DNA of 64,000 bases. Origin: Actinostola sp. cb2023. Taxonomy: Eukaryota; Cnidaria; Anthozoa; Actiniaria; Actinostolidae. The DNA is taken from positions 141,501 to 205,500 of the forward strand of contig JAUJYZ010000098.1 of the NCBI GenBank assembly GCA_033675265.1, written 5' to 3'. The notes below the pieces were generated by a model, which saw only the letters and a program-made list of their open reading frames with translations, ran no database searches and was not told the DNA's origin. The translations under genes and the position numbers were made by a program. Positions within the stretch are counted from its first letter, which is position 1; each line of letters opens with the position of its first letter. Below, piece after piece: positions 8,406-55,227 of this stretch.

Positions 8406-11400
8406 ACTACACATCACACACCCATACAGTTGCTCTGCATGCGATCAAAGTCTTACTACACATCACACACCCATATAGTTGCTCTGCGTGCGATCAAAGT
8501 CTTACTACACATCACACACCCATATAGTTGCTCTGCATGCGATCAAAGTCTTACTACACATCACACACCCATACAGTTGCTCTACATGCGATCAAAGTCT
8601 TACTACTACACATCACACACCACCCATACAGTTGCTCTGCGTGCGATCAAAGTCTTACTACACATCACACACCCATATAGTTGCTCTACATGCGATCAAA
8701 GTCTTACTACACATCACACACCCATATAGTTGCTCTGCATGCGATCAAAGTCTTACTACACATCACACACCCATAAGTTGCTCTGCATACTTACTTACAC
8801 ATCACACACCCATATAGTTGCTCTGCATGCGATCAAAGTCTTACTACACATCACACACCCATATAGTTGCTCTGCATGCGATCAAAGTCTTACTACACAT
8901 CACACACCCATATAGTTGCTCTGCATGCGATCAAAGTCTTACTACACATCACACACCCATATAGTTGCTCTGCATGCGATCAAAGTCTTACTACACATCA
9001 CACACCCATATAGTTGCTCTGCATGCGATCAAAGTCTTACTACACATCACACACCCATATAGTTGCTCTGCATGCGATCAAAGCTTACTACACATCACAC
9101 ACCCATATAGTTGCTCTGCATGCGATCAAAGTCTTACTACACATCACACACCCATATAGTTGCTCTGCATGCGATCAACCCATATAGTTGCTCTGCATGC
9201 GATCAAACTTACTACACATCACACACCCATATAGTTGCTCTGCATGCGATCAAAGTCTTACTACACATCACACACCCATATAGTTGCTCTACATGCGATC
9301 AAAGTCTTACTACACATCACACACCCATATAGTTGCTCTGCATGCGATCAAAGTCTTACTACACATCACACACACCCATATAGTTGCTCTGCATGCGATC
9401 AAAGTCTTACTACACATCACACACCCATATAGTTGCTCTGCATGCGATCAAAGTCTTACTACACATCACACACCCATATAGTTGCTCTGCATGCGATCAA
9501 AGTCTTACTACACATCACACACCCATATAGTTGCTCTGCATGCGATCAAAGTCTTACTACACATCACACACCCATATAGTTGCTCTGCATGCGATCAAAG
9601 TCTTTACATACACATTGCTCACACCCATCATAGTCTTACTACACATGCTATGTTGCTCGCATCAAAGTCTTACTACACATCACACACCCATATAGTTGCT
9701 CTGCATGCGATCAAAGTCTTACTACACATACCCATATAGTTGCTCTGCATGCGATCAAAGTCTTACTACACATCACACACCCATATATATCAAAGTCTTG
9801 CTCTGCATGCGATCAAAGTCTTACTACACATCACACACCCATATAGTTGCTCTGCATGCGATCAAAGTCTTACTACACATCACACACCCATATAGTTGCT
9901 CTGCATGCGATCAAAGTCTTACTACACATCACACACCCATATAGTTGCTCTGCATGCGATCAAAGTCTTACTACACATCACACACCCATATAGTTGCTCT
10001 GCATGCATGCGATCAAAGTGCTCTTGCGATAAAGTCTTACTACACACACACACCCATATAGTTGCTCTGCATGCGATCAAAGTCTTACTACACATCACAC
10101 ACCCATATAGTTGCTCTGCATGCGATCAAAGTCTTACTACACATCACACACCCATATAGTTGCTCTGCATGCGATCAAAGTCTTACTACACATCACACAC
10201 CCATATAGTTGCTCTGCATGCGATCAAAGTCTTACTACACATCACACACCCATATAGTTGCTCTGCATGCGATCAAAACTACACAATATAGTCTTGCATG
10301 CGATCAAAGTCTTCTACACATCACACACCCATATAGTTGCTCTGCATGCGATCAAAGTCTTACTACACATCACACACCCATATAGTTGCTCTGCATGCGA
10401 TCAAAGTCTTACTACACATCACAAAGTTGCTTATGCGATCAAAGTCTTACTACACATCACACACCCATATAGTTGCTCTGCATGCGATCAAAGTCTTACT
10501 ACACATCACACACCCATATAGTTGCTCTGCATGCGATCAAAGTCTGCATGCGATTAAACTTACTACACATCACACACCCATTAGTTGCTACAAACATCAC
10601 ACACCCATATAGTTGCTCTGCATGCGATCAAAGTCTTACTACACATCACACACCCATATAGTTGCTCTGCATGCGATCAAAGTCTTACTACACATACACA
10701 TCACCCATATAGTTGCTCTGCATGCGATCAAAGTCTTACTACACATCACACACCCATATAGTTGCTCTGCATGCGATCAAAGTCTTACTACACATCACAC
10801 ACCCATATAGTTGCTCTGCATGCGATCAAAGTCTTACTACACTTACTACATCACACACCCATATAGTTGCTCTGCATGCGATCAAAGTCTTACTACACAT
10901 CACACACCCATATAGTTGCTCTGCATGCGATCAAAGTCTTACTACACATCACACACCCATATAGTTGCTCTGCATGCGATCAAAGTCTTACTATCACACA
11001 TCATATACACGATCAAAGTCTTACTACACATCACACACCCATATAGTTGCTCTGCATGCGATCAAAGTCTTACTACACATCACACACCCATATAGTTGCT
11101 CTGCATGCGATCAAAGTCTTACTACACATCACACACCCATATAGTTGCTCTGCATGCGATCAAAGTCTTACTACACATCACACACCCATATAGTTGCTCT
11201 GCATGCGATCAAAGTCTTACTACACATCACACACCCATATAGTTGCTCTGCATGCGATCAAAGTCTTACTACACATGCAGTTGCGATGCAAAGTCTTACT
11301 ACACATCTTGCTCTGCATGCGATCAAAGTCTTACTACACATCACACACCCATATAGTTGCTCTGCATGCGATCAAAGTCTTACTATATAGTTGCTCATGC

Positions 11401-12040
11401 ACACATCCATATAGTTGCTCTGCATGCGATCAAAGTCTTACTACACATCACACACCCATCAAAGTCTTACTACACATCACACCCATATAGTTGCTCTGCA
11501 TGCATCAAAGTCTTATCACATCACACACCCATATAGTTGCTCTGCATGCGATCAAAGTCTGCATGCGATCAAAGTCTTACTACTACACATCACACACACC
11601 ATATAGTTGCTCTGCGTGCGATCAAAGTCTTACTACACATCACACACCCATACAGTTGCTCTGCATGCGATCAAAGTCTTACTACACATCACACACCCAT
11701 ATAGTTGCTCTACATGCGATCAAAGTCTTACTACACATCACACACCCATATAGTTGCTCTGCATGCGATCAAAGTCTTACATCACACACACAGTTGCTCT
11801 CACACAAAGTCCCATACAGTTGCTCTGCATGCGATCAAAGTCTTACTACACATCACACACCCATATAGTTGCTCTACATGCGATCAAAGTCTTACTACAC
11901 ATCACACACCCATATAGTTGCTCTGCATGCGATCAAAGTCTTACTACACATCACACACCCATATAGTTGCTCTGCATGCGATCAAAGTCTTACTACACAT
12001 CACACACCCATACAGTTGCTCTGCATGCGATCAAAGTCTT
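8406..12040 (+). repeat. 49-bp tandem satellite, about 74 units
   Basis: Head-to-tail 49-bp units run through TTGCTCTGCATGCGATCAAA and then ACACATCACACACC. Most units are identical, with a CATATAG start and a CTGCATGC centre. Variant units (CATACAG, CTGCGTGC, CTACATGC) cluster at both ends of the array. Truncated or scrambled units occur, for example near 9178, 9600-9660, 10010-10040, 10275-10310, 10985-11010 and 11275-11310. As 49 is not a multiple of three, three units give a 147-bp cycle with one in-frame TAG. The 40-90 residue open frames are therefore a by-product and not genes. Each standard unit contains one TGCATG. Confidence 0.97.
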
Positions 12041-22006: not shown

Positions 22007-22189
22007 AAGCCGCATCTACTCGAACAAGTTTTCCTTGACAAGTTTTCCTTGACAATAAGGAAAAATTGACAATTTTTTGTCATCTACACGAGCAAGTTTT
22101 CCTTGACAAGGAAAAATTGCCGATGTTTTTGTCGTCTACACGAGCAAGTGTTCCTTGTCAAGGAAAATTTGCTCGTGTAGATTCGGCTT
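22007..22189. mobile_element. 183-bp MITE, AAGCCGCATCTAC ends (copy 1)
   Basis: The ends are AAGCCGCATCTACTCGAACA and its near-complement GCTCGTGTAGATTCGGCTT. The interior repeats ACACGAGCAAG-TTTTCCTTGACAAGG three times, spaced by TTTTTGTCGTCT-like linkers. A second copy lies at 55032-55227. The adjoining TA-containing sequence is suggestive of a target duplication but not decisive. Confidence 0.8.

Positions 22190-33837: not shown

Positions 33838-33890
<53 letters not shown>
33838..33890. repeat. Poly-G homopolymer, about 50 bp
   Basis: An uninterrupted G run is flanked by GATTGAATCCCC. It could form G-quadruplexes, and its true length is unlikely to be assembled accurately. A similar run lies at about 52818-52870. 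Confidence 0.9.
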
Positions 33891-35015: not shown

Positions 35016-35164
35016 GCTATTTAGTAGTGGCCGATTTTAAAAGGAGTAATCCCACCAGAGTAGGCTCAATTTCCGGCCTTGAGTGAATTCTGGGCTTCTT
35101 CTATCAATCGACTGTTTTAGTGTGTCGGGCTGATTAGACGGCATACTGTAAACGGACTGGACTT

Positions 35165-35470
35165 GGACTGGACTGGACTCAAAAACTGTAAAACATGGAC
35201 TGGACTCAAAAACTGTAAAACATGGACTGGACTCAAAAACTGTAAAACATGGACTGGACTCAAAAACTGTAAAACATGGACTGGACTCAAAAACTGTAAA
35301 ACATGGACTGGACTCAAAAACTGTAAAACATGGACTGGACTCAAAAACTGTAAAACATGGACTGGACTCAAAAACTGTAAAACATGGACTGGACTCAAAA
35401 ACTGTAAAACATGGACTGGACTCAAAAACTGTAAAACATGGACTGGACTCAAAAACTGTAAAACATGGAC
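35165..35470 (+). repeat. 27-bp tandem array, 11 units (left arm of element C)
   Basis: The unit is TGGACTGGACTCAAAAACTG-TAAAACA. As 27 bp is nine codons, several frames on both strands stay open; these are not genes. Confidence 0.95.
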
Positions 35471-37159
35471 TAAAAAACAGCTGAACAGGTGAATTAAATA
35501 ATTAAATCTTTCTCCGATGAAGGGCCAAGGCTCGAAACGTCACTAGTAAAGTTTTTAACTTTTAACTTAAAAGTACTATTTTTTACGGTGTTACAGTTTT
35601 CCTTTTACCTATCTTATATCAATTTAATAAACCTTTTTCTTCTTCTTGTGGCTATGATCTAGGCAAAAACGACGAAAATTCCTTCACTGATATATAGCTG
35701 AGAAGCGTCATCTGCGAGAAATAGTACTAAAAGCATATAATACTGCACATGGAGCATGGTAACGAAATAACAGCCGAATATGACTAAGATATCAAAATGC
35801 TAAAGACAACAAAACACTGGCCATAAGGCCTATTCAGCTGTTCGTATCTTAGTTTGTCACATATCAATGATAAATTATTTGTAATATAAAATTTATCAAG
35901 TTATTACAATACAGCCCTTTGTGTTTATGCGTCATTTTCAAAGAGTGTCGCTAACGAATTTCTATAGTTGCGGGGTGGGTATTCTATAATCAGCTCCGGC
36001 ATTATTGAATAGGTTCATTGCGGGTTTAACATTGTTTTGACTTGATCTGATCACGGCATATATGTTCCCATCACGCACTCATCGCGGCACATGATGAGAC
36101 AAAAGCGTTTGACAGACATTTTGATAGGGAAAGTTCAGTTTAGGACTGCATGTAGCTACTACTGTGAAGCCAGTAATAACATGAATAGACAATGATCAAG
36201 AAGAGAAATGAAGGAAAGAAATTATGGAGAAAATAAATGTAACGTCAAAAGAAAATGATGTGATGTCGGTGTAACAAAAATAAAGACAAACGTTTGACTG
36301 ATAAAGCGTGACTTTCAAGTGTTCACTAGTTTACACAAGGGAGCGCGATTAAAATTATGATATCGTTTACACGATAATGATGATATCAACGGAAACTGGC
36401 GACTACGAAAAATGCCATTCAAATTTTAATCAACAAGAATATTTGGCAATCTTAACAATAATTTATCTGAGAGAACAGATATAAGACATATAATAGAAGT
36501 GTAACTATAAATAGGCAAACTATCCTTGTGTGGAGAGTTCTAAAACTTTACACTACGTGCAGGCCGTAAAACGGAAATTTAAATGGCGTGCTGAGATACA
36601 GAAGATAAGAAAAAGATAATAGTAAAATGATAGAATAACAAAAGAACATGCAATGGTGTACTACCATCTGAACCCAAACTGCGTTGCCATTCGCCATCTA
36701 ACCTACATTCCTGCTTTGTGCAAGGTGCCAGAAGACCTCAAACCATTTTTAACAACTAAGTACACAAAAGATTCAATGTTGTGACGTGACGCTTGTGGCG
36801 TGACGCTATTTTATAGACTAGTTTATTTAAGTATTTGGTTTCCTTTATATGGTTTCCTTTATAAACGTTAGAGATATGCTTTGGCAGACCTCGTACAATT
36901 TGATCACAGTTGACGAGTTAATTGCTTCTTTTTTTAGAGGAGATGGATAACACCTTATATTAGTCTCCTTCGCAGCCGCCTGGGTGGTGGCTAAAAGGAC
37001 CTCATTAATATAAAACAATAGAACGATGCAGTAACACAATAGATTCGTTCTATTGTTTGGTCGGCCAAGGGCGGTTTGGGTTATGGAAACAAGCCTTTAC
37101 CAGCCGCCTGAGGTCAAGTCACGCTACGCGGGCCCGCACACGCCCCAGCGTGACTCAAG

Positions 37160-37480: not shown

Positions 37481-37765
37481 ACCTAGAAATCCGATGATAT
37501 TTCATCCCTTGATTTGTACTACTATTCGTGTAGAAACGTACGTAACACGAGAGACATATATTTGAAATCAAAAAGCTCTTCCTTTTAAGAAATGAGCCCA
37601 GAATTCTTTCGAAAGCACTCACGTTTTTGGCATTTTAATTGTTCAGTTGATGTAACATGCATAGGATAATAATTATATTATAATTATACTTGCACTGTAT
37701 CATATATGTCATACTATGTCATAACATACATACTCTCTTACCGTTTAGAGAGTAGATTAGATCAA

Positions 37766-37965
37766 GTCCATGTTTTACAGTTTTTGAGTCCAGTCCATGT
37801 TTTACAGTTTTTGAGTCCAGTCCATGTTTTACAGTTTTTGAGTCCAGTCCATGTTTTACAGTTTTTGAGTCCAGTCCATGTTTTACAGTTTTTGAGTCCA
37901 GTCCATGTTTTACAGTTTTTGAGTCCAGTCCATGTTTTACAGTTTTTGAGTCCAGTCCAGTCCAA
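37766..37965 (-). repeat. 27-bp tandem array, 7 units (right arm of element C)
   Basis: Same unit as at 35165-35470 but inverted (TGTTTTACAGTTTTTGAGTC-CAGTCCA). Confidence 0.95.
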
Positions 37966-38007
37966 GTCCAGTCCAGTCCAAGTCCAGTCCTGTATGCCTG
38001 ATTAGAC

Positions 38008-40251: not shown

Positions 40252-40664
40252 GAGGAGGGATTTTATTAGTTTTGTTAGCATATTAGCAAGCGGTGTTTGG
40301 CCATTTTAAGTTTAGATGACACTGACAGATTGTAATATCCTTATTACATCTTAACTTCCTTTACTCTTGTACCATAAGAATAAATATATGCGTTTGTATC
40401 ATTTACTACTTGACGTAATTGAAAAATAGCACTGACAGGTTCTGAGAACTACATTCATTAAAGGGCTACTGACGCGATTTTTGGACATTTTCCGTTAAAA
40501 TCGGAAAGCAATTAGTTTTCATACTGCTCAGTCGACAAAAGCAATGTTTTTGAAAAAAAAAGTAATATTTAGATAGATTTGGCGCGTTTATCCTTACCAC
40601 AGGAAGCCCGGTCATACGTTTTTAATAATTAATGATGTGACGTCACAGCCAGAACACGATCAAT

Positions 40665-41487
40665 ATGGCGAGCGACATGGCGAGCAGTAATGGTAGTAGT
40701 GATAGTGACACATCATCGAGCTCTAACGAAGGGTGTTTCGAAGTCGACACAAACATATATAAAACCATACAGTTTTGAACCCCATTATGATGCAAGCGAA
40801 ATTGAAATTGAGCAAATGTCTACAGATGAAGTCGAAGATGATGCGATTGATGGAGTTCATCGTAGAGATCACCGAGACTGGTACAAACTTTAACTTTACG
40901 TAACATGTACTGTATTGATTTTATAACCTCCAGAATGAATGATTTTTAGATATGAAATATTTTCGTTTTGAAATCTATGTGTACATGTGTCTGTTTTCGA
41001 GTGCATTACATTTATAAAATCTGTCTAGCTTTGTACGCGTTTTCTTGTCGTTTCTCTTTATCTACAAAGGTGTTCTTGTGAAAACTGTCAGCGAATGGGA
41101 ACCGATAGGGAGTGTGTTTGCTGTCGTGAATGCGAAGGAACCTTTAGCAAACTGCATGACAACATCGACTATTACAGACAAGATAACATGTTTGACTGTA
41201 TTACAAATCATCCTGGATTCCAAGCCATATGTTTGAACCCTTTTGTTTTGCAAGTTGCATGGTTGTCCTACAAACAGCACTATGCTAATGCCTATGAAGG
41301 CCCTGATCACAAGAAGTACAGGCACATTGCCTATAGGCAGTACATCAGATGGGTCCATGGGTTTGTTGGAAAAAATATTCGTAGTGTTATTCCATCATGT
41401 GCTGTGTGCTGCATCCAGGCCCATTTCCCACCCCCAGGGTTAGAAGAAGACTTTGAATTTACAGGTTTCATGCTACCAGATTTATAA
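40665..41487 (+). CDS. P2X7-type zinc-binding ballast-domain protein of the Kolobok element
   Basis: Two exons, 40665-40880 and 41070-41487, are joined at a GT-AG intron (donor GACTG|GTACAA, acceptor TCTACAAAG|G). The join recreates a WCSCENC motif, which supports it. The protein starts MASDMASSNGSSDSD, is acidic and Ser-rich, then has PYSFEP, WCxCxxC, ECVCC, CIT..HPGF, AYRQYIRW, IPSCAV and a GF near the C-terminus. These follow in order the Cys/His framework of the cytoplasmic ballast region of vertebrate P2X7, a zinc- and guanine-nucleotide-binding module (established). No channel part is present. The N-terminal frame meets the rest through one extra A in the run 40761-40764, a frameshift that may be genuine or an assembly error. 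It lies convergent to the transposase inside the same terminal repeats, so a transposon accessory role is inferred; the function is unknown. Confidence 0.85.
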
Positions 41488-42013
41488 GAACTTCTAGATT
41501 GCAAGTTTATTTTGTCTATATTTAGTTGTAACTACGATTATAATGTACATGTATGGTGTCATAATAGACCTCTTTAGCTTCGTATGTAAATTGCCCATTT
41601 CAAATCATGTGATGTAAGAGATCTATTGTTAGCTTTTTGGCATCAGCCTGTTTTGAAACAGTTACCGCAAGGATTTTCTCTCATTTTGTTTTCAATAAGC
41701 TTAAATAGATATGAGTAGATTAAGAGTTCATTGCCTGATTCTTAGATTAGTTGCGAATTGTTACAATTATGCTTCATATATATTTATTTAACCATAGTAG
41801 ATAATGAATATAGAGTAGTACAATTTCTGGAAACAAATTTTAATATCATATGATATCATAATATTATGATATCATAACTTGTAGAGTGATTTTACTTAAC
41901 CTGTGAAATACAGTAAAAAGCTTCATATAACAACCTAGATTTTTCCAGGTTAGCCTAAAATGGTTTTCATATATTTGGTGTCTACTGATAATTATTTATC
42001 TATAAGAGTAAAA

Positions 42014-44350
42014 TTACACCCTTGCAAATCTTGTTGTATGTTCTGCAACAGCTTGGTCTTTGTCTGGCCGAGTAAAGGCTGAGCATAATGGTGGTGGATT
42101 GGCAACTCTGTGCATCACACGCTGACCATTTTCAACTGCATGGGTTAAACTTATGAGTAGGTCATCTACATAACCATATGAACAGTCTTCCAGAATCTTC
42201 CTTACAATATGACCACCTTTCTTGTACTTGGGGTAAATAATGTTGTACTGCTCTTCATTTTGTAAATTTTTCTTTTGGGGTCTTGAACTGTTTTCATTGT
42301 AATGTAAGGCTGCAAGATACAATCTGCTCCTCATACCATCATATGAGAAATGAAACATCTTTGGGGCAAACTGGTTTACTAAACTGTGATAACCCTCCAC
42401 TACAGATGTTTGACCATGTTTTGAACATTTTGCAATATCTTTGATTAAATTCTTGTCTAAGATGATTTTTTCTAGTGCCTCGAATACCTCTGTGTCTGGT
42501 TGTAGCCACTTGATTGACCTTATTTCTGTGACAGGTAGGTCATCATGAGCACAATTTGGGAACAGATCACTATGCCCATCATGCTTGTTCTGTACATGGT
42601 TAATGATAGACCTCCACTTAGCCTCAATCAAGTCCTTGTTGTTGTGCTCTGAGGACGTCACTGACCAATAAAAGTGATTAACGATAGATTTAATCCACTG
42701 GCCTATTACTTCATAGTTTTTCTTTTTGGCTAGAGCCTGCAATTTCTTTTTGATGCTTTTGGCAACATGCCAGCAATCATAAAAGTGATCCACAACTTCC
42801 CAGTCTTCTCTTATCCATTTGTTAATTTGTTTGTGTCTGTCAGTAACTACATCACGAACATTCAAATTAAACAGGTTAAAGACATCTACCATTTTTTTTC
42901 AGTCCCATCAACTCCATTGCATTAGATGATGTGGTTTCATTGCTCTGTACGAGCTCAACAGTCAGTACTTTATTGTTTGTTAATTCTATGGCTGTATATG
43001 ACCCATACTTAGCACAGTGCCCCATACTATCACACCTGCCGTCTCCTCCAACAATCAGTTGCTCATCTTTTAGTTCCACTAAGTAACTGTCTCGCTTTGA
43101 AAGCCATATCTCGGATACGACCTGGTGAAGATATCTTTGTTGGTGTCTAAAGAACGTTCTTGGGGAAATGCAAGCTATGCTTAGTGAGGTCAACAAACGT
43201 ATTACTTTGGAAGGTAATGCACCAGTAAATAGAATAGAGCCACTAAGTAAAACATTGCCATATGGAGTTCCTTTAATTTCTGGTTGGCTCCTCCATTCTC
43301 TCAATGTTTTACAGCAAAGACATTTGATGAAGACAATAAGCATACATCCAGACAACTTTTGATATAGTTGAACATCAGTAGAATAGCAGGTCAGACAAAT
43401 AGATAACAGTAGAAGTAGCTTGTTATGAAAAACGATATATTTGGGTTCCTTGTGCGGCTGACACTTGTCTGTGTACGGTCGCATTTCATCAGCCCGAACT
43501 TCGTCTTCGCTATCCGAAGCATTTTCGTCGAATTCTGGTTGGTACAGTTCGATCTCTTCTTCTGGTGTTTCATTTTCACTCTCCTCGCTTTCAACCTCCA
43601 ACTCCAAGTCTGTCTTTCTTGTTCGTTTCCTACGGCTATAGCTAGGTCTGGCATTACACATTGTACACCAACGTTTCTAGTTTTAATTTTATTTTTTGGG
43701 ATAGGTGGATTCCACTTTCGAGTTTGTGTACCTTGTTCCTTTGCTTTTGTGGAACTGATCGCTTCCTTGTGTTCACAATTTTCGGCTGTGCTCGTGGACG
43801 TCGCCGCTTCTGACAGCTGTTCAAGAAGTCTTCTGGTCTCGCGTTTTTTAAATGCAGACCTGCAGGTTGGGGTTTCTGCTGGCGATGGAGTACCCAATAA
43901 CAACTGGCTACTATGAATAGTAGGAACTGCAGTTATTCTATTAAGAAGCAAACTGAAAGAGAAAAAAGTTGACAAATTGTTTACATGTAAGTTACTGAAA
44001 TACCCGGTGATATAGTCACGAACATAGTCACGAACATGTCACTTTATACAATCAAAATTGACAAAAATGAATGAAAACGAAGCTTATAAAATATTATACA
44101 AAAGTAGTAGACCACAGAGTACAATGAAAACTTACCGTTTCGCTAGACATGCTTTAAATTGACCAAGATTAGTGAAGCATTCGTCTTTGAAGTGCTTTCT
44201 ACAAAGTACAGATCTTGAACTAGGTGACCATTTATCCCTTTTTAATTGTACAAATTTTGTCCATGCCCGGGCAATATTCTTATCTGAAGGCCACACATAC
44301 AGCTCATTATCTTTATGGTCACATTCAGCAGCTACACAACGACTTGGCAT
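42014..44350 (-). CDS. THAP-domain Kolobok transposase, frameshifted copy
   Basis: Exon 1 (44350-44136) encodes a THAP zinc finger: C5-x4-C10, C50-x2-H53. It splices (AAACG|GTAAG to TTTCAG at 43953) into exon 2 from 43952, which restores the AVPTI motif that normally closes a THAP domain, so the join is convincing. A Ser/Glu-rich linker follows, then the catalytic region with GGDGRCDSMGHCAKYGSYT, TDRHKQINKW and SVVEGYHSLVNQFAPK, the likely DDE-type acidic residues, and a WHVAK motif. Two frame breaks occur: a repeated GT near 43656-43660, and an eight-T run at 42892-42899 (one base too many). Either the copy is inactivated or the assembly has indels in simple runs. THAP proteins bind DNA; the product would act in the nucleus on the element's terminal repeats. 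Confidence 0.88.
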
Positions 44351-44452
44351 ATTTATTTAGTTGTAAAAATTCGAAGAAACAATGAAGTATTATAAAGTAA
44401 TCGGTGTGTGACTTGTGTTTACGCAACTCTGGGTTACGGGGAGTTCTGGCTG

Positions 44453-44460
44453 TGACGTCA
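44453..44460 (-). promoter_or_regulatory. CRE palindrome upstream of the transposase start
   Basis: TGACGTCA lies about 100 bp upstream of the transposase ATG and is mirrored by the one at 40638-40645, 20 bp upstream of the ballast-protein ATG. Both stand about 175 bp from their respective element ends within GTGACGTCACAGCCAGAAC, so both gene promoters seem to be built from the same subterminal inverted repeat. CREB/ATF binding is inference. Confidence 0.5.
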
Positions 44461-44657
44461 CTGCCTCGTTTTCGCGTGCCGCGGGAAATTCTAAAAACTG
44501 CTTTCTTCTCGGCTTCATAAATGATTGTTTTTAAGGATAATTAATGATTTTTTTTTTTAATCGTAATTAAAAAACCTAATACTTTTTATCAACTTTGTCA
44601 AAAATGTGCCAAAAAATCGCGTCAGTAGCCCTTTAAAAACGTGACAGAGAGGTTTTT

Positions 44658-45848
44658 CTAGCGAGTTGTAACAATGACAATTCTGGGGAATTCCTTCCCC
44701 GTCTCTTGAATCTCCTCGCCTCGCAGCTCAACAGTTTCAGAGCCGTTTCCATCGAGATTTAACTCTATTAAATGTGGTAGGTTTTCAGTTCGCGTTTCGG
44801 CTCCGTTTTCTTGAGGTTTTTCGTGTCTTGTTTGACCGTTCGAACAGACCCTAGAGTTGCGGAAATTTGCTGTTGGAGTGACTCTCGCTCCACACGAAGC
44901 TCTCATGTTTTGCATCACGGCTTTGCAGCCTTTGCGAAAGCTCTCGTTTGTTGCTGTGTAGAGAATGGGGTTGAGGGCAGCGTTACTGAATCCAAGAAAA
45001 AATATCACAAAACCGTGGAAAATCCCCGTATTTTGGCACACGTTCATTATCTTTAGCCTAAACACGACGCATGTGACATAGATCCATAGATACGGCAGCC
45101 AGCATAGGTAATGAATCGTGATCACCCCAAGACCCTGTCGGATCACTCGACGGTTCTTCCGGCTGCGTGCTATTTGACTAGTTTCTGTAAGAACGCGTCC
45201 CGGAATGGAATTTCCACGCGTGACTTTCAGAACAATGGCAATGTAGAGGAGCAATGTGACGAGAAATAGGACCGTGTAGAGGCAAGCTTCGATCTCCCGC
45301 CACGGTCGTATTTGATCAAATCTGCTATCACAGTACATGTTGTTGGCGTGTTTGAATACGTTGATGCTGTAGAGTTTTGGGGCATAGAAGCAACACGCCG
45401 TGACCCAGACTACGGCGCTAATAACGTGAGCTTTCTTGACCGTAAGGATCTTCTTTAGAGGGTAAAACACGGACAGAAATCGCTCCACGGCGATGACGCC
45501 AATGCTCAGAGCAGACACGGCAAAACCGACCTCGATGACATACGCGTGCGACTTGCAAACAACCACACCGAACCAACCAGAGATCAGCCATCGACGATTG
45601 TATAATACGAGTGTTATCATGTACGGCACCCCGACAACCGTGGTGATCAGGTCAGCCGTTGCCATGTGGCAGATAGTCGCGCTCATGACAAGCTTTTTCA
45701 GCCCGTTTTTGTCTTTTTTGTAAGTGACGATCACGAGAAGGTTTCCCACTAGCGACACCACCATGACTACAGAATAAGCACCGACTTGCAATCCCTGGGA
45801 GATGAGTTCATTTTGGCTGCTTCCTTGGCTGCTATTCCCTCCACTCAT
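44658..45848 (-). CDS. Class A (rhodopsin-like) GPCR 2, intronless
   Basis: Single exon, 396 residues, seven hydrophobic segments; a plasma-membrane G-protein-coupled receptor. Motifs: N5 glycosylation site; GN 35-36 (helix 1); Asp66 in ATADL (helix 2); Cys98 and Cys173 for the disulphide; ERF at 122-124 in place of DRY; CWLPY at 249-253; NPILY at 293-297; and a long polar Glu/Arg-rich tail. The motif spacing and local matches (IEV.FAVSA, VHY.CW.PYL-like helix 6, SFR.G after helix 7) make it a paralogue of GPCR 1, which lies 20 kb away pointing towards it. The ligand is unknown. The Kolobok transposon lies 21 bp past the stop codon (TTAA at 44633-44636), so the original 3' UTR is displaced and polyadenylation probably depends on transposon sequence. 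Confidence 0.93.
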   Translation of the reverse strand: MSGGNSSQGSSQNELISQGLQVGAYSVVMVVSLVGNLLVIVTYKKDKNGLKKLVMSATICHMATADLITTVVGVPYMITLVLYNRRWLISGWFGVVVCKSHAYVIEVGFAVSALSIGVIAVERFLSVFYPLKKILTVKKAHVISAVVWVTACCFYAPKLYSINVFKHANNMYCDSRFDQIRPWREIEACLYTVLFLVTLLLYIAIVLKVTRGNSIPGRVLTETSQIARSRKNRRVIRQGLGVITIHYLCWLPYLWIYVTCVVFRLKIMNVCQNTGIFHGFVIFFLGFSNAALNPILYTATNESFRKGCKAVMQNMRASCGARVTPTANFRNSRVCSNGQTRHEKPQENGAETRTENLPHLIELNLDGNGSETVELRGEEIQETGKEFPRIVIVTTR

Positions 45849-46611
45849 GATGGCGAATTGTCGGTTTTCTCCAGCTCAGCTCGAAGACGTGTTCAAACCC
45901 CGAAGAAATTCACATCTATGTGCTTGGTTTTGTAGGCGAACACTTGGAATTTGACTGACGACCTGGGTCGCTTGCTAAGCCAATCAGTGACGTCCTCGGT
46001 TGCAATTAAAGTTATTTTCTGTCACAAACGCCTTCTCAGTGGAAATTGGAATTTTATGCAGCAAATTCAAGAGAATTCACTGACGAATCGGGATAATCAC
46101 ATCGCATATCTCAGTGTAATTGAATCACAATGTGGTTTCGATGTTTTCTCATTTCAGAGTTGTAGTCATTCACTCGGTATAATTCCTTTTCGTCCGTTGT
46201 TGTTGAGGCATTTTAAAACTCGCGTGAACAAACGCATTCGGATATGAAAAAACTTTGAACAAAAATTGTTATTATTATTATTATTCGCAACTGAGAAGAT
46301 TGGAATTGACAAAGCGAACACGGCTTCACTGGTAGCTTTGAACTGTCGGGCTTCAACGCTTGCTTTCCATCACAGTTTCATCTCTGATCGAAAAATACTT
46401 TAATGAGGATGTTTACATCAAAGAAGTTCATATTTTTCCTATCATGAATGAGTAATTGTTATTAAACTGTTTAAAAAGGCTAAGTGGTTGAGGATTTAGT
46501 CTATCTTTTTAATTTACAAATAAAACAAAGCAAAACTACAAAACGAAACCAGACTGTGAGGACTTGAATGAAGCACTTTTAGCGGCGTAACATCGTTTGA
46601 CTAGGTCAGAT
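45849..46611. other. 5' flank of GPCR 2
   Basis: The open frame at 45951-46247 (plus) has no recognisable domain. The interval presumably includes the GPCR 2 promoter; no specific site is claimed. Confidence 0.3.
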
Positions 46612-52818: not shown

Positions 52819-52852
<34 letters not shown>

Positions 52853-54419
52853 CAGGGGGGGGGGGGGGGGTCGCTAGGGAAGGGTCACAACATTTTCAAC
52901 GCTCAAATTAAAATCTCCACTCCCCCTCCCCCCTGTCAATTTCTGACAAGTCCCTTAAGTGCTTCGTTGACACTTTAGATTCGATAAATGGAGTGGAACT
53001 GGCTGAGAAATTCATTGCTAAGACTATACTGTAACACTAACGCTGAAACGCTCAAAAGAATAGCCTACTTCACATCCGCACAATTCAGTTCTATTAGCCA
53101 CTTTAGAAACGAGTGAAGGACTGGGAACGAGTATTAGAATTAATCTAATGAGGGTTTATCAGGTAATTTCAAGACTCATCGGACAAAAAAATGATTATCA
53201 TAGCTGGAAAGAGCTCGTTGAAATTAGTAAAAATGTGAAGTTTGTAAAAGATCGCTTCACAAATTGCGAAGATATGAATTTTCAAAAATCGAAATTTTGT
53301 ATGAAATAAGCTTGGAAGCAACTCTTGCCTACCAACAAAGGTTTTCATACAAAATTTCGATTTTTGAAAATTCATATCTTCGCAATTTGTGAAGCGATCT
53401 TTTCCAAACTTCACATTTTTACTAATTTCAACGAGCTCTTTCCAGCTATGATAATCATTTTTTTGTCCTATGAGTCTTGAAATTACATGATAAACCCTCA
53501 TTTAGAAATGAACCCCATCACAAGAAAGAGCAAATCAGAATTAGTAAGTTTCAGGAGTTTGATAGGGTTTGGACAAAGCAGCAACTGAACTGCAGACATT
53601 TAAAAACTGCAAAAATTACAAAGAAATGTATGTTACTCGGAACAAGTGTCCAAACATACATTTCTTTGTAAATTTTGCGATATCTGGAAAGCTGTTACTC
53701 GTTCAACATCTAACAAAACCTACCGAAACTTTGTCAGTAATATTGCTAATTCTGAGAATCAGATGCTAGCGCTCTTTCTTGTAATGGGTTCATTTTTTAT
53801 TTATGCCCCATTCACACCAAAACGTGTTTAGTTAAACTGGGTTTTTCTAGCTTCTATAATCTGAGAGCATCTAATTTCACAAGAATCAAACTATCTGGTA
53901 TTTATACTGTGTAACACAAAGGACAGTTTACCAGCAGTTTTGTGCCAAAGGTTGCGTGGCGTTTGTAGATAATTTTCTAAACCTGTTTAGTTAAACCACT
54001 TTAAAACATGTTTTAGCCTCGGTGTGAACGGGGCATTTTTAGATTAATTCTTAAAACTCGTTCCCAGTCCTTCACTCGTTTCTAAAGTGGCTAATTCATG
54101 CTACGTCATTAGCAGCATGCCAAGCGTTTTCGCGCCAATTTCGCGCGTCCACCAAATCAGTCACCAGATCTCTCGCAACGCAGATAAAAGGCCACTACTC
54201 ACCAAATGCAATAATATCATATTTTTCTTGTGTTAACGTCGATTTCTCTAAGGTCACCAGGCACGGCAAAGGTTCGTCTGTCCTTGGTCGTAGCGCTGCT
54301 ATTACTGTTCCTTTATTTTTAGGGTCTGCATTGTATAACATCTTGATAACGCTGAGGGGGGTTCCTCGTTCCACCTTGAGGACAGGTTTTCCTTCCTTAT
54401 ATAACAGAACCTGCAACAT
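50905..54419 (-). CDS. C2H2 zinc-finger protein, 653 residues, two exons
   Basis: Exon 1 is 54419-54203, exon 2 is 52649-50905. The donor (ATTTG|GTGAGT) and acceptor (TTTTTTTTCCAG) join in phase 1 and give exactly 653 codons plus stop. Residues 1-72 form a compact, charged N-terminal domain (LQVLLYKEGKPVLKVERGTP ... ALRPRTDEPLPC) that I do not recognise. Residues 86-520 are low-complexity, rich in Ser, Thr and Pro, with acidic patches and a basic RRKRSSHK segment near 193-200 that could be a nuclear localisation signal. Four C2H2 fingers close the protein: C531/C534/H547/H551, C559/C562/H575/H579, C587/C590/H603/H607 and C615/C618/H631/H636, with TGERPY-type linkers. It is probably a nuclear DNA-binding regulator; the target is unknown. 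The start has A at -3 and lies just below a CRE cluster. The intron is packed with transposons. Confidence 0.9.
52675..52954. mobile_element. 280-bp TTAA-flanked MITE in the zinc-finger intron
   Basis: TTAA flanks both ends (52671-52674 and 52955-52958). The termini GGGACTTGTCAGAAATT and AATTTCTGACAAGTCCC are exact complements. A ~30-bp and a shorter poly-G run lie inside. TTAA targets fit Kolobok or piggyBac relatives; the ends differ from the full Kolobok element in this window, so it belongs to another family. The nearest end is about 25 bp from the splice acceptor. Confidence 0.85.
53094..54095. mobile_element. 1-kb element, TTAGCCACTTTAGAAACGAG ends, hosting a palindrome
   Basis: TTAGCCACTTTAGAAACGAG, then TGAAGGACTGGGAACGAG, pairs with CTCGTTCCCAGTCCTTCACT ... 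AAGTGGCTAA at the right. The palindromic MITE 53146-53502 lies inside near the left end, so it inserted later or is part of the unit. Ends resemble 6692-7111. All of this is intronic. Confidence 0.75.
53146..53502. mobile_element. Near-perfect palindromic MITE, TAATGAGGGTTTATCA ends (copy 3)
   Basis: Same family as 20723-21092 and 27833-28212. The arms pair over nearly their whole length around a short loop. It lies in the intron of the zinc-finger gene, so its transcript would contain a hairpin of about 165 bp. Confidence 0.9.
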
Positions 54420-55031: not shown

Positions 55032-55227
55032 AAGCCGCATCTACACGAACAAGTTTTCCTTGACACGTTTTCCTTCACAAGGAAAATTTGACAATTTTTT
55101 TGTCATCTACACGAGCAGGTTTTCCTTGACAAGGAAAAATTGGCGATATTTTTTGTCGTCTACACGAGCAAGTCTTCCTTGTCAAGGAAAACTTGTCAAG
55201 GAAAATTTGCTCGTGTAGATTCGGCTT
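55032..55227. mobile_element. 196-bp MITE, AAGCCGCATCTACACGA ends (copy 2)
   Basis: Same family as 22007-22189, with ends AAGCCGCATCTACACGAACA and CTCGTGTAGATTCGGCTT and the same internal TTTTCCTTGACAAGG modules. It lies about 800 bp upstream of the zinc-finger gene start. Confidence 0.8.

Follow-up and report, generated by a model that had tools for sequence, protein, structure and literature searches.

The window analyzed here is a stretch of 64,000 nucleotides from the genome of Actinostola sp. cb2023 (contig JAUJYZ010000098.1, forward-strand positions 141,501 to 205,500). At positions 40462..44632 it contains a 4171-bp element that, judging from its sequence, is very probably a decayed Kolobok DNA transposon with two genes, belonging to the Kol0 lineage. 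The two genes are a transposase gene on the minus strand and, on the plus strand, the gene for KolX, a protein with the ballast domain of the P2X7 receptor. TTAA target sites are found on both sides (40458..40461 and 44633..44636), next to perfect 21-bp terminal inverted repeats (40462..40482 on the plus strand and 44612..44632 on the minus strand). With the TTAA included, the two ends match perfectly over 25 nt and at 93% over 30 nt, reaching position 40487. The element starts with AG and ends with CT, in line with the 5'-RR...YY-3' rule for Kolobok termini, and TTAA precedes the left end at all eight loci of this family that were read. The end pattern TTAAAGGGCTACTGACGCGATTTTTKG, with up to three mismatches allowed, matches the window at 40458 (plus strand) and 44636 (minus strand) and has no match in 100 shuffles. 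The initial annotation had placed a Kolobok element with a transposase and a spliced ballast gene at exactly these coordinates.

KolX is encoded by two exons. Exon 1 (40665..40880, plus strand) specifies an acidic, Ser-rich segment with the motif IKPYSFEP; its frame is broken in the window copy, which the initial annotation had missed. In the predicted GT...AG intron (40881..41069), the donor GT at 40881 and the acceptor AG ending at 41069 join ...HRDW to CSCENCQRM, producing the WCxCxxC motif (WCSCENC). Exon 2 (41070..41487) matches the Pfam domain P2RX7_C (PF20478; 51.4 bits, cut-off 23.5) and contains the further cysteine motifs ECVCC, DCIT, and PSC. P2RX7_C is the sole domain found in the KolX open reading frame, where it is not fused to a P2X channel domain.

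The transposase gene is convergent with KolX, in a tail-to-tail arrangement. Its exon 1 (44136..44350, minus strand; splice ends predicted from the sequence) encodes a THAP domain (PF05485; 31.9 bits, cut-off 23.9), a usual component of the Kolobok superfamily (PMC6004289). Exon 2 (42014..43952, minus strand, with a predicted start) encodes the DDE core, the DCWH motif, and a zinc finger. Its frame is broken twice, near 43637-43667 and 42894-42904, and the window copy aligns in three pieces. The transposase shares 98% identity, across 90% of the query, with an uninterrupted protein of 661 amino acids that does not include the THAP exon. The Kolobok-type DDD/E and C/DxxH signature is represented by D320, D387, DCWH at 408-411, and E535 (numbering of the query protein P0036), which are conserved across 32 aligned rows and identical in the window open reading frames. 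Between the second D and the E, there is an H2CH-type zinc finger, in which H468, H473, and H485 are invariant and C483 is nearly so in the same 32 rows. Both genes are thus disrupted in the window copy; open copies of them are found elsewhere in the genome.

The host genome carrying the window (424,152,321 bases) contains 16 matches to the left end of the element, and 13 of these are followed, 603-665 bp downstream, by a PF20478 match on the same strand. Of the other three, the one on C512 has a PF20478 match at 5.4 kb and those on C996 and C78 have none nearby. A consistent lack of the ballast gene in other copies of the family, which the initial annotation had named as refuting its reading, was not found; the gene is present at seven of the eight left-end loci that were read (the window copy, L001, being counted among the eight). 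Spliced KolX is open over 212 codons at L004, L006, and L007. At L008, exon 1 is open and exon 2 is broken late. The window copy, L002, and L005 share one and the same break in exon 1, with an additional exon 2 break at L005. The eighth locus, L003 (G000:C996:203554-206670), retains TTAA and 212 bp of the left end, followed by unrelated sequence, and is a possible nonautonomous derivative of the window family.

The association extends beyond this family. PF20478 has at least 150 matches in the host genome (the best 150 of 295 candidates were scored, and every one is above the cut-off) and none in 14 control genomes. Genome searches with three transposase queries, P0036, P0096, and P0118 (best 67 of 1464, 57 of 1128, and 68 of 932 candidates scored, respectively), yielded at least 76 merged loci. 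A PF20478 match lies within 2 kb at 47 of the 76, all of them tail-to-tail, within 5 kb at 55 (54 tail-to-tail and 1 on the same strand), and within 10 kb at 59 (58 tail-to-tail and 1 on the same strand), with 17 loci having none. The P0036 search by itself has 44 of its 57 loci paired with PF20478, whereas 1000 uniform placements gave 0.25 on average and never more than 3. Conversely, at least 55 of the 149 merged PF20478 loci have a found transposase within 5 kb, a lower bound because the transposase searches scored only part of their candidates. A separate profile search detected a transposase C terminus within 1.5 kb of 22 of the 30 best PF20478 loci, again tail-to-tail in all 22. The same tail-to-tail pair is found in several unlike families.

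Some of these counts speak against membership of the ballast gene in the element: 21 of the 76 transposase loci have no PF20478 match within 5 kb (among the best 150 of 295 candidates), 94 of the 149 merged PF20478 loci have no found transposase within that distance (among the best-scored candidates), and 8 of the 30 best PF20478 loci have no profile-detected transposase within 1.5 kb. Another explanation would be that a host gene was trapped by chance between the transposon ends, and an account that predates 2022 did present stand-alone ballast genes as host genes (PMC7016195). Chance capture is contradicted, however, by the 13 of 16 left ends and the 55 of 76 transposase loci with a ballast match and by the recurrence of the pair in unlike families, which leave it a negligible probability. 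The suggestion that the ballast gene belongs to the transposon therefore stands, but "cargo," the term used in the initial annotation, is the wrong word, because the Kol0 lineage carries KolX as a regular gene.

Kojima and Bao (2022; PMC9587614) have reported, in short sections of that paper, that Kol0 elements encode KolX as a second protein, that KolX is clearly similar to residues 476-595 of P2X7, with a fold containing seven conserved cysteines, and that P2X7 originated when a P2X4-like gene became fused to KolX. The window element resembles their Kol0 lineage (Kolobok-1_XT) in its TTAA sites, RR/YY ends, DDE transposase with C/DxxH, and KolX ballast fold with seven cysteines; the second gene is supported here by both the PF20478 score and the tail-to-tail pairing. 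The differences are in sequence only, the comparison being with the published description rather than with Repbase, and the window copy has broken frames. The window family also has a subterminal repeat, described below, that is not mentioned in those sections. The proposal in the initial annotation that Kolobok elements were the source of the P2X7 domain thus agrees with the published account but is not new. The earlier interpretation was largely right and is partly supported by the present data; that the domain is a standard Kolobok protein and the source of the P2X7 tail is already in print since 2022, and the window element adds a new example. In the literature searched, which leaves most subscription journals outside, the Kolobok-P2X7 link rests on these sections of a single paper, and no further account was found. 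PMC9319628, considered as a second account, names Kolobok and P2X7 in unrelated places of the text available. Several tens of short PF20478 matches in the host genome (profile positions 143-192) were suspected of being the piggyBac-linked proteins of PMC9587614; the three that were inspected, L041-L043, adjoin transposases of the Kolobok type and resemble fragments of intron-split KolX genes.

Fifty aligned KolX rows, 38 of them taken from loci and 12 from a protein search (48 sources, since L039 and L040 duplicate L025 and L026), fall into two types, which differ at rat P2X7 position 547. His is found there in 22 rows, including the window type, and Lys in 28. The K-type genes are likewise located inside Kolobok elements. 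A copy on C1438 is bounded by TTAA at 2045 and at 11076-11079 of the joined locus. The final 19 bases of this copy agree with the inverted first 19 at 16 places, and it carries a tail-to-tail pair of KolX and a transposase in several pieces. Its identity to the copy on C1014 is 99.956% over 9036 bases. Members of this K-type family of approximately 9 kb (L024, L025, L026, and L028, with L039/L044 extending L025 and L040/L045 extending L026) are 99.7-100% identical where compared, and the family is a recently moving one in the host genome.

With the K-type profile, the rat P2X7 tail reaches 63.2 bits, against 39.5 bits with the H-type profile. Plain identity does not separate the two types for this tail (mean 0.275 versus 0.286), and an attempt to place P2X7 by a tree failed, with a branch of 5.14 for the rat tail and a program warning on long branches. 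Because the rat tail favors the K-type profile, the window family is probably not the closest relative of the P2X7 donor, a single rat sequence being a thin base for this comparison.

At each of the seven putative zinc-binding cysteine positions of KolX (rat positions 477, 479, 482, 498, 499, 506, and 572), 47-49 of the 50 rows have a letter, and no more than one of these differs from Cys. The seven cysteines, among them C572, and also R546, A549, Y550, R551, P570, and I577 are common to both KolX types and rat P2X7. Apart from A549, these residues, together with a fold match, constitute the likeness to the vertebrate P2X7 ballast (PF20478; structures 6u9v and 6u9w), from which the window gene differs in having no channel. 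In searches of the PDB, the sole fold matches clearly above the rest are those to P2X7. Two positions are conserved in KolX and differ in the rat protein, G562 (50/50 rows; Asp in rat) and R566 (48/50; Phe in rat); the alignment is ungapped there, and both are candidates for residues that serve the transposon's own use. The N-terminal part of KolX is acidic and Ser-rich. Among the 15 rows with at least 50 residues before the first cysteines, 10 have the motif [PA][YF]xFEP (PYSFEP in the window), 2 more have YxFEP, and the remaining 3, metagenome open reading frames that look like intron read-through, have neither. A viral relative of KolX was rejected, with no match in viral_contigs and no BFVD fold match with E <= 0.001.

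Thirteen KolX pairs were compared. In the five divergent ones, silent change per site greatly exceeds replacement change; one has 54.2 changes at 82 silent sites and 51.8 at 284 replacement sites (dN/dS, 0.13), and the other four have saturated silent sites. The eight close, partly overlapping pairs add up to 9 silent and 10 replacement changes, and one of these eight (L033/L034), with 4 replacement changes and no silent ones, counts against selective constraint. We conclude that KolX is maintained by selection as a part of the transposon.

What KolX does for the transposon is a matter of conjecture. Our leading guess, weakly held and with roughly even chances, is that it is a trans-acting cofactor of transposition; action in trans is suggested because three distinct copies share one broken KolX. 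In this scheme, the transposase would recognize the ends through its THAP domain and cut with its RNase-H core, and KolX would contribute in trans a folded zinc domain and an acidic, disordered N terminus, whose [YF]xFEP motif might dock a partner. The conserved basic trio R546, H/K547, and R578 (rat numbering) would bind an anionic ligand needed for assembling or processing the transposon ends, be it a guanine nucleotide or a DNA end.

A guanine nucleotide is an improbable choice of ligand, brought up because of the P2X7 site and the GTP requirement of the P-element transposase, which needs GTP for pairing and joining ends (PMC7776569) and resembles the Kolobok transposase in its THAP domain and RNase-H core. 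Of the five contacts with GDP listed for the P2X7 ballast in PMC7016195, KolX has R546 in 49 of 50 rows, a basic residue at 547 in all 50, and R578 in 39. In a wider KolX set, found from the window and mostly of the window type, R546 is present in 135 of 139 sequences, H547 in 138 of 139, and R578 in 127 of 137. Several observations count against a nucleotide site of the P2X7 kind: the rat residues R574 and K583 are missing (Val at 574 in 47 of 50 rows; Lys at 583 in none), R578 is replaced by Gln in the 6 window-family rows with a letter (the other exceptions are 2 rows with Lys and 3 gaps), so that this family keeps only R546 and H547 of the trio, and no KolX biochemistry was found in the literature searched. 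The P-element transposase is not among the 50 matches listed for each fold search, an absence that decides nothing. In the fullest version of the idea, KolX would deliver a guanine nucleotide in trans to the complex at the Kolobok ends, a task performed in the P-element transposase by a built-in domain; the GDP/GTP site of P2X7 would be an inherited transposon cofactor site, and the donor would be a K-type KolX and not one of the window type. We consider this version less likely still.

KolX could also be a DNA-end processing protein whose zinc fold does nuclease or helicase work. In sister Kolobok lineages, the accessory proteins are a His-Me finger protein, a lambda-type exonuclease, a DEDDh exonuclease, and RecQ (PMC9587614), so KolX, in the same accessory place, may do equal work, and the conserved basic residues R546 and R551, along with the KolX-specific R566, would fit such a role. 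Nevertheless, no nuclease motif was recognized in KolX by eye, and P2X7 is the only PDB fold match that stands out. Moreover, position 547 is His in one clade and Lys in the other and therefore is not a shared catalytic histidine. We consider end processing unlikely.

Regulation of the element is the other role to be weighed, at a similarly low probability. The subterminal inverted repeat GTGACGTCACAGCCAGAAC, which includes the palindrome TGACGTCA, is found at 40637..40655 (plus strand) and, 100% complementary over its 19 nt, at 44443..44461 (minus strand). The first copy precedes the ATG of KolX by 9-28 bp, and the second precedes that of the transposase by 92-111 bp. KolX might bind these repeats, or recruit a host factor, and so set the expression of both genes; its acidic, Ser-rich N terminus resembles activation domains. 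The 10-mer GTGACGTCAC is confined, within the window, to the two repeat copies. The palindrome, however, occurs 12 times in the window and was not found within the 9-kb element of K-type KolX, so the site is not general, and an acidic N terminus is an unlikely DNA binder. The cofactor role remains our first choice.

Stand-alone ZCD proteins and Nanor, described by Rump et al. (2020; PMC7016195), resemble KolX in being small proteins with a variable N terminus and a C-terminal ballast domain. They are reported in fewer than 10 copies per species, versus at least 150 matches in the host genome, and H547, which that paper reports as lacking in invertebrates, occurs in the H-type KolX clade. The main text of that paper has no word starting with "transpos." It includes a tick protein with an N-terminal "TAHP" (probably THAP) domain fused to the ballast domain, which may represent a read-through or fusion of both Kolobok genes.

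Next to the element, a single-exon gene for a rhodopsin-type G protein-coupled receptor is found on the minus strand (44658-45875; 7tm_1, 108.8 bits). Its stop codon is 21 bp from the right TTAA, and the transposon sits directly behind it, perhaps in the 3' untranslated region. Elsewhere, the window contains two tandem arrays of a shared 27-bp unit in opposite orientation (35154-35471 and 37762-37974), 100% alike over 213 nt and approximately 2.4 kb apart, which are perhaps the ends of another mobile element. It also contains a 3.6-kb satellite with a 49-bp unit (8406-12040), two dispersed arrays with similar 52-53-bp and 14-bp units (22024-22172 and 55049-55209), and two runs of approximately 52 G residues (33839-33890 and 52819-52870, the latter imperfect).

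The transposon origin of KolX suggests that many invertebrate database entries named "P2X purinoceptor 7-like," several of which were seen here, are transposon genes. With at least 150 ballast matches and a 9-kb family of near-identical copies, the host genome offers recently moving elements for testing the job of KolX, which is perhaps the original job of the zinc- and guanine-binding module in a receptor that is a drug target.

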